Below are positions 37,428-43,584 of a DNA stretch of 49,082 nt, piece after piece. A program made the translations under genes and the position numbers. Every line of letters begins with the position of its first letter. The first letter of the stretch is position 1. The stretch is from Mesoaciditoga lauensis cd-1655R = DSM 25116 (GTDB lineage Bacteria > Thermotogota > Thermotogae > Mesoaciditogales > Mesoaciditogaceae): positions 1 to 49,082 of the forward strand of contig NZ_JQJI01000015.1 in assembly GCF_000745455.1 (NCBI RefSeq). The letters run 5' to 3'. A model generated the notes under the pieces. It did not search any database, was not told where the DNA came from, and saw nothing but the letters and a program-made list of their open reading frames with translations.

Positions 37428-38789
37428 TTACTCATGTGTTTGATCTTTTTCGTAAAAGCTTGCAAATCTTGGAAAGAAACTCACAACGATACTGCCTATT
37501 GGCCCATTTCGTTGTTTGCCTATTATTATTTCAGCGTCCTTTGGAGCGTTAAAATCGAATTGCTCTTCTTCCTCATCTTCACCCTTATGTCTCTTCTTGA
37601 AATAGTCTTCTCTATGAATGAACATTACCACATCTGCGTCTTGTTCAATTGCTCCAGACTCTCTTAAATCGCTGAGCCTTGGGCGTTTTTCATCCCTTTG
37701 CTCAACAGCTCTTGAAAGCTGTGAAAGTGCAACCACACAGACATCCAATTCCCTTGCAAGAAGTTTCAGCGATCTTGATATTTCAGATATTTCCTGTTGC
37801 CTGTTTTCGTGCCTCGATCTTGTATGCATGAGCTGTAAATAGTCTACAAACATCACATCCATACCATACTCTTTTTTTATCTTCCTTGCCTTGGTTCTCA
37901 ACTTCATTATGTCCAATGAGGGATCGTCATCGATGATCATGCGTGCGTTTCTCAAGCGTGCCGCGGCATCTGTCAACCTTCTCCAATCGTCCGGGCTTAT
38001 CGATCCGGAACGTATGTTTTTAAGATCCACAAAACCTTCTGCGCACAGCATTCTTTGGGCCAGCTGCTCTGCCGACATTTCCAAACTGAAAAACGTTACG
38101 TCATGATCATAACGCAACGAAATATTTCTTGCAAGCGTAAGGGCAAGAGACGTTTTTCCCAAAGATGGCCTTGCCGCCACTATAACTAAATCTGATTTGT
38201 GAAGCCCTGCGGTCATTCCATCCAACTCTCTAAAACCAGTTGGTATTCCGGAAACGTATATTCCTCCTTCGGGTGATTCCTTTTCAATTTTAAGCTTTTC
38301 TATGTTCTCAAAGGAAGAATTTATGACTTTCTCCAACGGCATGTAGCTTCGTGTTGTCCTATCTTCTGCTATTTTGAATATCATTCTTTCCGCATCGTCA
38401 AGTATATCTTCAACCTCTCTTTGTTCGTAAGATAGGTTGGCAATCTTTGAAGCCGTACTTATCAGCTGGCGAAGAATCGATTTTTCTTTCACCATTTTGG
38501 CATAGTATTCCACATTGGAAACTATGGGAACGGCATCCGCGAAATGCATAACCCCTATTTCTCCGCCTACCAATTCCAACTGTTTCTCAACTTTCAATTC
38601 TTCAACGACAGAGAGAACATCTATGGGCTTTGAATCTTGAAAAAGTTTCTCCATCGCTTTAAACACCAATTTGGTTGGTGTGAAATAAAAATCGGAAGAC
38701 GTTAAAATTTCAAACACCGAATCAGCCACTTCCGGATCTAAAAAGATAGCTCCAATTACAGCCTCTTCAGCTTCCCTGCTTTGAGGCAA
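37428..38789 (-). CDS. dnaB: Replicative DNA helicase DnaB
   Basis: Hexameric 5'-3' helicase at the fork, 453 residues. The N-terminal helical domain begins PQSREAEEAVIGAIFLDP. The RecA-like core has Walker A ARPSLGKTSLAL, FFSLEMSAEQL, the Walker B-like FVDYLQLMH and ALSQLSRAVEQRDEKRP. No intein interrupts the P-loop. The TTG start at 38789 follows GAAGGT; an upstream ATG frame stops after five codons. The segment EDEEEEQFDFNAP near the C-terminus is a short acidic insertion. Confidence 0.96.
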   Translation of the reverse strand: MPQSREAEEAVIGAIFLDPEVADSVFEILTSSDFYFTPTKLVFKAMEKLFQDSKPIDVLSVVEELKVEKQLELVGGEIGVMHFADAVPIVSNVEYYAKMVKEKSILRQLISTASKIANLSYEQREVEDILDDAERMIFKIAEDRTTRSYMPLEKVINSSFENIEKLKIEKESPEGGIYVSGIPTGFRELDGMTAGLHKSDLVIVAARPSLGKTSLALTLARNISLRYDHDVTFFSLEMSAEQLAQRMLCAEGFVDLKNIRSGSISPDDWRRLTDAAARLRNARMIIDDDPSLDIMKLRTKARKIKKEYGMDVMFVDYLQLMHTRSRHENRQQEISEISRSLKLLARELDVCVVALSQLSRAVEQRDEKRPRLSDLRESGAIEQDADVVMFIHREDYFKKRHKGEDEEEEQFDFNAPKDAEIIIGKQRNGPIGSIVVSFFPRFASFYEKDQTHE

Positions 38790-38817: not shown

Positions 38818-41800
38818 TTAGAAGAATGAAAATCCAAAATTGCCGTTTACCGGATCAACGGATACGTATTTCTCAGGGAAAGCCGTTATGTAAAGGGTAA
38901 GAGAAAACTTGGAAATTTTAAATCCATTTGAGGGGGACATATCCAAACTTCCTTTTAATCCAAGGCAGTCTAAGTTTTTATAAAAATTCAAGCTTAAACT
39001 CTGAAGGCCACCGTTTGAAAAGTTTCCTTTTGAAGATATTGACATACCTATTTCTTTTATGCTTCCAGACGCTTCAAAATTTAAATTGTCCACTGAAAAA
39101 TTATCCGTTCTTATCACAAATTTAGAAGACCATTTGAAATTGGAAAAAAACAAAAACTTTCCCATAGATGCCTCTAATTTACTTGAAATATTGGAAAGTT
39201 TACTGGAGCCGTAATCGTAAATTGTTTCACCATGATATGAAATTCCTCCGTACTTTGAATCAAAAGAAAATTTGGTGTTTATTGGCGTAAAGGATGGTTT
39301 TATGATCGTAGTTGTGTTAACAGCATTTGAAACGCTGAAGATTTTGAATTTGGATGAAGTTACCAAACTGATATTTGACCACGGATTGGTAAGATTGTTG
39401 AAATTATAGGAAAATTTTGCTGACGCATTCAAAGGCACAAATGGAACTTTATATGACAATGCAAATGCCAAATTGTTTTCAAAGTTATGCGTATCAAATT
39501 TTGAGATATCCTGCCCTCCAACACCAACTAATGTGTGAACTACTGACGTTTTCACTCCAAATATATCCTTAGAAATGGATGTTTTCAAAATGCCTGCAAA
39601 GCGATCGGAAAATCCCGCACTGCTACTTGTTTTTTTAATCCCTGTTTTTGCGCTATAAGATAAATTCAAGGCTGTTCCCCATAATTTATACGAAAATGAA
39701 TCAAACGCATAACTCGCATCCATGAATAATGAATAACCTAACGGTTTCTCATTTTGAAGTGAAATGTTACCGTTGTAATTACCGCTTATGGACTTCAACG
39801 TGAAAAATCTATATGGAAAGGAAAACTTTCCATTTAAGGAATCTGAGATGGAAAAATTCTGCGACGGAAGATAGAAGAGATTATCTCCTTTCAATTCGCT
39901 GACAGCGTTGAACTTGCCAAGTCGGGTTTTCAAATCCTTAAGGGAATAAGGAAGCTCATATTTCTGATTCCCACCGTTAACAAATTGAAGAGCTTTCAAG
40001 GATAAACTTCCACCACTTAACGGGCCATTCAAAGAAATAGAAGTAGTTTGGGAGTCACCTTTTACGTTAGTTTGATAAGAAAAAGCACTTTTGTACTTGG
40101 AAATACTCAACGAACCTCCGAGTTTAGCATTTTCCGCAGAGATCTTGCCATCTTGAACCGTTTTGGAATACGAAAAGTAAAAAGGTATGCCTGCCAGTTT
40201 TGCATTCACATCAAATCCTTGAGACGATGGTCCTTTTTCATAGGACGAAAAAAAAGCATCTCCGCTTACGTCTTTTGAAGGCGAGAAATTGAATTTTACC
40301 GCTGTGTACCAACCTTGCGTGGGGGAATGGCTGAAAGACACTTCCATTGGCTGTTTTCCCCCAGCAAGAGAATAGTAATACTGAGGAAGGTAAAGAACTG
40401 GCAAACCAAACAGATACATCACGATGTTGTAAGCCACCAAATGATCTTCTGGAACTAAGTATATGCTTTCAGCTTGTATTTTGTAATGAGGAGGGTTAAA
40501 CTTGCAAGTCGTTATGTATCCAGGCTTTATGATACTTGTTCCACTCTTCGTGTCGTAGATGGAATGTTTCCCATAAAAATAAACGTCTTTCTTCTCACCT
40601 TTTGCGTTTTTTATCTTTTCTATTCCACGGAGGTTATCTATAATGGCGGTGTCTTCTTGAAGCTTAACTTTTATCGTAGAAGCCATTATTTTCCTTTCAC
40701 TCTCAATAAAAACGACGTTTCCTTCAAAAAGCGCCAATGTAGCTCTTCCATGGTCGTTAAAAAAAATCTTCAGTGTGGAAGCGTCAACGGTATAATTTTC
40801 TGTTTTAACTTGAACTCCTTGCGTGTAAACTATTTCCGTAGCCGAAATGGTGTTCATCTGACCAGCTGTTATTTTAAAAAGCTGTGCTCCAAAGGTCCTT
40901 CCACCTATTGTGAAGATGAAGATTATCAAGAGAACAGGCATTATTCGAACAAAAAATTCTTTTATCTTGAACATCAAACGGCTGTCTAAAAGCAAGAAAA
41001 ATGTCAGCCCAAGTACCGCAAATATCACGTCAGGTGCCCACGAAGCCAGGACTGGCGATAACAATCCGTTTTTTCCCATCGCACTTAGCCATGCCCCCGA
41101 ACCCTGATAAAGCACGACTAAAACAAAAGTGATGATGACTCCCCAGGATTTGCTTTTTATGCCGAAAAATAGAGAAAATGGTACGCCCAAGAATGCGATT
41201 ATCAGCGCTCCTATGGCATTGGCGAATCTCGTGTTGAGTTCTACAATGTAAATTCTAGGATCCAGCCCAAGTTTCTTAAACAGTTTTATGCGATCCATAA
41301 GCTCGCGCGAGCTCATTGATTGAGCCGTCTTTTGTGATCTTATAAACCTTATGATGTCTTCCGTTATATTCAAATTCATCGTTTTGAAGTTCATGTCAAA
41401 ACTCATGAGACCGTTCTTAAGAGTGTAAATTCTTCCGTCTTTCAGGATCCACTTTCCCTTTTGGAAATAGGCATGTTTTGCATAAGTAACGGTAAAATCG
41501 TTGCCTTTTACCTTGTATATGAGAACGTCATCGAATTCTTCGGTTTGAGGGTCGAATTTTTCCACATAAAAATAGCTGTCTCCAGCTTTGAAGAATGTGT
41601 TGGTTTTTACTTGTGGCATCCCGGAATGCCACACCGTCTTTTGAAGGTATTCTGAAGCTTTCGAATTGTAGTTAGGAACCACAAAATCCTGAATCAAGTA
41701 CGTGGCCACGCTTAGCACAAGGCCCATTAAAAGAAAAGGAAGAACGATTTTTTTTAAATTGATCCCATGAACCTGTAATGCCATTAACTCTCTACGTGTT

Positions 41801-42042
41801 GAAAAGTTTGAAATTTCCCAGAATATGGCCAGCAACACTCCGACAGGTATACCCATTACTATGAATTCCGGAAGGTTGTAATAAACCAATATTATAAGGC
41901 TCCAAAAGCTCACGTGATTTTGTACTATAACATCAGAAAGCTGGTATAAAAGCTCAACGCTGACGAATATTATAAATCCTATCAATCCTATGAAAAAAGG
42001 CAAAATGAATTCCTTAGACACGTATTTGCAAAGTGTTTTCAA
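38818..42042 (-). CDS. Fusion of LptF/LptG-type permease with LptA/LptD-type outer-membrane module
   Basis: A single 1074-residue protein. Residues 1-355 are an LptF/LptG (YjgP/YjgQ) permease: N-terminal helices with VSVELLYQLSDVIV, then a periplasmic jellyroll domain and three more helices. At about 367-384 a further hydrophobic helix ending GGRTFGA-Q looks like a former signal peptide. About 395-510 is an OstA/LptA-like domain. About 510-560 carries the LptD landmark TTCKFNPPHYKIQ, then VMYLFGLPVLYLPQYY. The remainder to residue 1074 is a Ser/Asn/Lys-rich, alternating beta pattern ending FGFSFF, consistent with a beta-barrel. The start is TTG 42042 behind GGAGGTG; a frame start at 42093 would overlap phoU. 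Canonical systems encode these as separate proteins. Confidence 0.88.
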   Translation of the reverse strand: MKTLCKYVSKEFILPFFIGLIGFIIFVSVELLYQLSDVIVQNHVSFWSLIILVYYNLPEFIVMGIPVGVLLAIFWEISNFSTRRELMALQVHGINLKKIVLPFLLMGLVLSVATYLIQDFVVPNYNSKASEYLQKTVWHSGMPQVKTNTFFKAGDSYFYVEKFDPQTEEFDDVLIYKVKGNDFTVTYAKHAYFQKGKWILKDGRIYTLKNGLMSFDMNFKTMNLNITEDIIRFIRSQKTAQSMSSRELMDRIKLFKKLGLDPRIYIVELNTRFANAIGALIIAFLGVPFSLFFGIKSKSWGVIITFVLVVLYQGSGAWLSAMGKNGLLSPVLASWAPDVIFAVLGLTFFLLLDSRLMFKIKEFFVRIMPVLLIIFIFTIGGRTFGAQLFKITAGQMNTISATEIVYTQGVQVKTENYTVDASTLKIFFNDHGRATLALFEGNVVFIESERKIMASTIKVKLQEDTAIIDNLRGIEKIKNAKGEKKDVYFYGKHSIYDTKSGTSIIKPGYITTCKFNPPHYKIQAESIYLVPEDHLVAYNIVMYLFGLPVLYLPQYYYSLAGGKQPMEVSFSHSPTQGWYTAVKFNFSPSKDVSGDAFFSSYEKGPSSQGFDVNAKLAGIPFYFSYSKTVQDGKISAENAKLGGSLSISKYKSAFSYQTNVKGDSQTTSISLNGPLSGGSLSLKALQFVNGGNQKYELPYSLKDLKTRLGKFNAVSELKGDNLFYLPSQNFSISDSLNGKFSFPYRFFTLKSISGNYNGNISLQNEKPLGYSLFMDASYAFDSFSYKLWGTALNLSYSAKTGIKKTSSSAGFSDRFAGILKTSISKDIFGVKTSVVHTLVGVGGQDISKFDTHNFENNLAFALSYKVPFVPLNASAKFSYNFNNLTNPWSNISLVTSSKFKIFSVSNAVNTTTIIKPSFTPINTKFSFDSKYGGISYHGETIYDYGSSKLSNISSKLEASMGKFLFFSNFKWSSKFVIRTDNFSVDNLNFEASGSIKEIGMSISSKGNFSNGGLQSLSLNFYKNLDCLGLKGSLDMSPSNGFKISKFSLTLYITAFPEKYVSVDPVNGNFGFSFF

Positions 42043-43185: not shown

Positions 43186-43584
43186 ATGAAAGGTTTCACC
43201 CTTATAGAGCTTTTGATAGTTTTGGCTGTGATAACGGCCATCATTTCAGCTTTAGTGCCACTGGGAGTAAACGTGATAAGGCATGCACGTGCCTTAACAG
43301 TTGCGTTTAACCTCTCAGAAATATCAAAAGCCGCCATGAGCAATTTTTACCTGGATCACAACACTTCTATTTCAATAGACAGCATAAAAAGCTACTTTTC
43401 TCAGCATGAAGAGCTGAAAGACTATCAAATAAAGTCATCACTTGCTTCAACGTTAGAACACGTGTACATATGGTACACCGGGAACGACATAACAGCTTCA
43501 CAAGTGGAAAAGGTCTTTCCAGATGTTGAAGCTACGCAGGGAAACAAACCTATGATTTCTATTGAACTTAGAAAATATTGGTAA
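43186..43584 (+). CDS. Type IV prepilin-like protein (pseudopilin)
   Basis: 132 residues. The prepilin peptidase site is textbook: basic leader MKG, then FTLIELLIVLAVI, with cleavage after Gly3 and Glu at mature position 5. A hydrophobic helix to about residue 30 continues into a short globular domain with no disulfide pair. The leader is extremely short (3 residues). Probably assembled by the PilB at 32464. The single-gene unit has its own promoter candidate and terminator. Major or minor pilin status cannot be judged. Confidence 0.9.
   Translation: MKGFTLIELLIVLAVITAIISALVPLGVNVIRHARALTVAFNLSEISKAAMSNFYLDHNTSISIDSIKSYFSQHEELKDYQIKSSLASTLEHVYIWYTGNDITASQVEKVFPDVEATQGNKPMISIELRKYW

Follow-up and report, generated by a model that had tools for sequence, protein, structure and literature searches.

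In the canonical Lpt machine for lipopolysaccharide (LPS) export, the pump of the inner membrane and the exit port of the outer one are usually separate proteins. LptD requires a disulfide between its N-domain and the C-terminal region of its barrel, and a C-terminal aromatic residue is typical of BAM substrates. In FbcH, the cytochrome b/c1 polyprotein of Bradyrhizobium, an internal signal peptide connects a polytopic membrane protein with the protein that follows it, and signal peptidase severs the two. The outer membrane of the Thermotogota is the toga. For the Lpt orthologs of LPS-free diderms, including Thermotoga maritima, a glycolipid cargo has been proposed in the part of PMC10353723 that cites Putker 2015, and in Thermotoga this cargo was argued from the unique glycolipids of the genus and its lack of surface lipoproteins (PMC10353723). 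According to a survey of outer-membrane genes from 2022, the Thermotogae are without nearly all genes examined except bamA (PMC8871954). In the open-access literature that we searched, we found no published account of a fusion between an LptF/G-type permease and LptD, and no described system that loads lipid into the outer leaflet of the toga.

The window analysed here is a stretch of 49,082 nucleotides from Mesoaciditoga lauensis (contig NZ_JQJI01000015.1), in which one gene encodes, in this order, an LptF/LptG permease, a signal-peptide-like segment, an OstA/LptD-N domain and a predicted LptD-like barrel (Table 1). The initial annotation, which named no strand, had described a single polypeptide of 1074 residues with these modules; the frame is indeed open on the minus strand and the order was upheld by profile and fold matches. 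A ribosome-binding site, GGAGGTG, lies about 7 nt upstream of the TTG start, the position of which is conserved in relatives, and phoU ends 17 nt before. Near phoU the window also encodes a small protein whose N-terminus is of the prepilin type (KGFTLIELLIVLAV, 43186-43584). Directly 3′ of the fusion gene lies dnaB (37428-38789, minus); the fusion of a distant relative (L181) likewise has a DnaB-like frame behind it, and such frames are present in other fusion loci, L090 included, which suggests that this linkage is conserved.

Table 1. Features of the fused permease-LptD gene, in window coordinates.
Feature	Coordinates	Strand	Remarks
Complete fused gene	38818..42042	minus	1074 aa; TTG start at 42042, stop at 38818; open throughout
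LptF/LptG-type permease, aa 1-355	40978..42042	minus	Pfam match, predicted model
Seventh hydrophobic segment, aa 366-386 (VRIMPVLLIIFIFTIGGRTFGA...)	40885..40947	minus	Candidate internal signal peptide or anchor; signal-peptide-like stretch at about aa 369-384
OstA / LptA-like / LptD N-terminal module, about aa 394-547	40402..40863	minus	TTC..PHY motif, Cys513
Predicted LptD-like beta-barrel region, about aa 548-1074	38821..40401	minus	Cys1026, C-terminal Phe

In order to place the gene within its phylum we surveyed 103 Thermotogota genomes, the contig scan returning Thermotogota only. The permease family PF03739 was present in 100 of them, nearly always once, and by our count from the survey table 89 genomes have it in a single open frame exceeding 880 aa, with typical lengths of 1050-1490 aa. 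Six of the 14 exceptions (G001, G021, G030, G033, G061 and G097) are consistent with a fusion truncated at a contig end, as overlapping contig ends demonstrate directly for G097; in two more, G005 and possibly G053, the gene is split; and three (G004, G031 and G054) gave no permease match, G004 and G054 nevertheless retaining the outer module or part of it. In the remaining three (G040, G043 and G093) the gene carries a frameshift or a stop. These few broken frames would fit a merging of two genes by an artefact of assembly or annotation, but the same fusion recurs in 89 of the 103 genomes, finished single-contig ones among them, and because of this recurrence, which is beyond chance, we consider an artefact ruled out for all practical purposes. 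The fused gene is thus real and phylum-wide in the Thermotogota.

The permease half matched PF03739 (LptF_LptG) over residues 6-349 with an E-value of 6.7e-79 and 265.9 bits against a cut-off of 27.9. Its layout is that of six transmembrane (TM) helices, of which TM3 and TM4 are separated by an inserted beta-jellyroll (about aa 145-224), and the half also carries a conserved REL-A-Q-HG loop in the region of the LptF/G-LptB contact. The NCBIfam scores, which fit the LptG model better than the LptF model, fell below both equivalog cut-offs (135.5 vs 230 bits for TIGR04407, 163.9 vs 240 bits for TIGR04408). The second LptF/G homologue that the initial annotation had proposed to look for did not turn up: the genome holds one PF03739 gene, and not the distinct F and G pair expected of an LptB2FG exporter. 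The family is single-copy in almost all Thermotogota, with two full-length copies in G005 only among the 103 genomes, implying that the permease probably pairs with itself as a homodimer. A single permease is not unique in itself, because diderm Firmicutes, too, possess just one LptF/G (PMC5007114); the unusual part is the fusion.

Taken alone, the outer half gave weak scores, reaching 13 bits with PF03968 (under the cut-off of 20.4) and 17.5 bits with the NCBIfam LptD model (E-value of 9e-4), and 31 of 49 relatives gave a PF03968 match at E-values up to 1. The LptD barrel model PF04453 never exceeded its cut-off in any of the 103 genomes; the 2022 survey (PMC8871954) appears to have missed the fusion, just as this standard model fails on its barrel. 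A phylum profile built from 49 outer modules and compared with PDB chains matched LptD (8h1r, 4e-6; 7omm, 2e-5) from the OstA region into the first part of the barrel, and it matched LptA at 2e-5. We then searched an AlphaFold model, built from six input sequences, with Foldseek. For the outer half alone the best 36 PDB matches were all LptD, with top E-values of about 1e-17 to 4e-17, and LptD chains outranked ushers and TonB-dependent barrels; the match had a TM-score of about 0.44 on a model with a low pLDDT of 56. For the full chain, the structure prediction of which the initial annotation had suggested, LptD came first, with LptG structures lower down, on a model with a pLDDT of 48. The profile and fold matches together bear out the OstA domain of the initial annotation and lend support to its LptD-like outer region, the predicted barrel being read as LptD-like from the ranking of folds and not from an accurate model. 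In family f6 (L062-L067) the fused proteins are longer, at about 1430-1470 aa, with a barrel half about 350 residues longer than in other Thermotogota.

Only two cysteines occur in the outer half of the window protein. Cys513 falls in the TTC..PHY motif and aligned with a cysteine of PDB LptD chains, and Cys1026 lies 49 residues before the C-terminus, in a stretch where 42 of 51 proteins have a cysteine. Judged from the alignment, the two are placed like the disulfide cysteines of LptD and may form the corresponding bond. Of 49 proteins, 36 have Phe as their last residue and 12 have Met, which is compatible with folding by BAM.

This one protein is nevertheless not the complete export machine: genes for LptB and for a secreted OstA protein lie elsewhere in the genome. 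The initial annotation had found no separate lptB, lptC or lptE in the window; LptB does exist outside it, as one gene (C1:139516-140214) scoring 291 bits against an equivalog cut-off of 240, while for LptC nothing exceeded the cut-off and for the LptE plug (PF04390) there was no match in the genome. Across the survey LptB exceeded the equivalog cut-off, one per genome, in 98 of 103 Thermotogota. The secreted OstA protein, of 211 aa, is encoded on contig C25, and OstA-like frames of 200-340 aa occur in most of the phylum. A third PF03968 match of the genome was considered as LptA and rejected, since it is a phage capsid-like protein; its locus (L046:85-3092, contig C65) carries phage capsid-like genes and is likely a prophage. 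At L104:7514-13602, a secreted BamA-like protein, assigned by eye, is encoded a few genes away from LptB; between the two are a gene for a penicillin-binding protein and an rsmH-like gene.

We then asked whether the chain works whole or is cut at its seventh hydrophobic segment. In an alignment of 50 fused proteins of relatives with the window protein, the linker shows a positive stretch, a hydrophobic core and a small-residue edge (such as THVYA-NE, TGFS-EK or AFG-S), and it resembles the N-terminal signal peptides of the phylum in having a polar or small edge after a short core. The candidate cleavage site of the window protein lies near aa 384-387 (TFG|AQ or TFGA|Q). A signal-peptidase weight matrix, trained on the N-termini of Thermotogota proteins, gave an equivocal outcome: segment 7 scored higher than TM1, TM3, TM5 and TM6, not higher than TM2, and slightly lower than true signal peptides. 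Its length sets it apart from the longer TM1-TM4 but not from TM5 and TM6, and so speaks only in part for cleavage. In family f5 (L051, L052) an insert of about 40 residues, rich in Pro, Thr and Ala, follows immediately after the signal-like segment.

The halves also occur apart. G005 has two adjacent stand-alone permeases (L047:7410-9743) and, on another contig, a stand-alone LptD module of 849 aa whose N-terminus is a signal peptide of the ordinary type (L132:7753-10302). The tree places both permeases in the fusion clade, beside fused members of their family (support 97/92), on long branches, and from this position the fusion appears to be older and to have been secondarily undone, with a duplication of the permease that gave an apparent re-evolved F/G-like pair. 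Because these free permeases, accompanied by a free LptD, lie inside the fusion clade, separate halves exist in at least one lineage. In G053 (L182:1762-5476) the permease ends at a TGA and an ATG 4 nt later opens a signal peptide and LptD frame, which may be a second independent split or a frameshift error of the draft genome.

These observations bear on the possibility that the protein remains an uncut bridge, with segment 7 as a permanent anchor and a fused dimer whose two barrels would weld the membranes together at contact sites. The frame is unbroken phylum-wide, segment 7 is as long as TM5 and TM6 or longer, and the cleavage site of the window protein itself scores weakly (0.9 bits), all of which would suit such a bridge. 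Against it stand the split genes of G005, by which the join is dispensable in one lineage, the separate secreted OstA protein, which suggests a longer bridge of several pieces, and the reach of the chain. By microscopy the periplasm of T. maritima measures about 50 nm between the membranes (PMC5082667), whereas in the AlphaFold model the stretch between helix 7 and the first OstA strand counts about 25 residues. With a reach of about 9 nm at most, to which OstA would add a few nm, the chain looks too short to span it. We regard an uncut bridge as unlikely, and give the same low odds to its functional corollary, in which the permease-LptD homodimer together with LptB would be a covalent, ATP-driven lipid exporter running from the inner to the outer membrane and opening at the surface of an LPS-free phylum. 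The intact chain across both membranes that the initial annotation had envisaged is consequently disfavoured by the signal-peptide-like linker, the split in G005 and the short reach, and signal peptidase may well cut the chain.

The explanation that we prefer, at a probability of roughly 0.57, is that the gene encodes a precursor of a permease and an LptD translocon, cut by signal peptidase, for the export of an amphiphile other than LPS. One precursor would thus supply both membrane-embedded ends of the Thermotogota Lpt lipid-export machine. The LptF/G-type permease would form a homodimer and associate with two LptB subunits encoded elsewhere, and segment 7, re-entering the membrane from its cytoplasmic side, would serve as an internal export signal by which the second half reaches the periplasm. 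There the second half would become an LptD-type translocon, with an OstA slide and a large barrel folded by BamA and stabilised by one long-range disulfide. Signal peptidase I would most likely cut near aa 384-387, so that permease and translocon would be made in equal amounts and work apart, bridged by the secreted OstA protein. Along the OstA modules the cargo would pass to the toga's outer leaflet; a membrane glycolipid is the likeliest candidate.

LpxC, a marker of LPS synthesis, was found in 0 of 103 Thermotogota genomes, which agrees with the remark of the initial annotation that the phylum is not known for classical LPS, and the cargo is therefore probably something other than LPS. The absence of LpxC would equally suit an exporter of the same architecture that carries a lipoprotein or a surface polysaccharide precursor and no outer-leaflet lipid, and LPS-free diderms such as Borrelia do retain Lpt proteins whose cargo is debated (PMC10353723). 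All module homology, however, is to lipid-handling Lpt proteins, and the same paper favours glycolipids in Thermotoga on the grounds given above, making a non-lipid cargo quite improbable and less credible than the uncut bridge.

The fusion is a variant of the Lpt system new to the literature searched, and a phylum-wide candidate for lipid export to the toga, the biogenesis of which becomes testable through a single gene. If the precursor is cleaved, one message would yield an inner- and outer-membrane pair at a fixed 1:1 ratio. The fusion is also relevant to the debate on diderm ancestry and LPS loss.

Compared with FbcH, the Thermotogota fusion differs in kind, as the parts of FbcH are respiratory and its second product remains at the inner membrane. 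The Lpt machine of Borrelia burgdorferi likewise serves an LPS-free diderm with a proposed glycolipid cargo, but it consists of six separate proteins with no reported fusion (PMC10353723). With LptF and LptG of LptB2FG(C), the permease half shares the Pfam family, the six TM helices with an inserted jellyroll and an LptB partner in the genome, whereas it is single-copy with no F and G pair, stays under the NCBIfam equivalog cut-offs and runs into an LptD module. The outer half departs from LptD in sitting on the permease chain, in an organism without LpxC and with no LptE found, and in scoring under the PF04453 cut-off; it resembles LptD in its OstA N-domain, its TTC motif, the cysteine of its C-terminal region, its barrel-type strand content and its best fold match.
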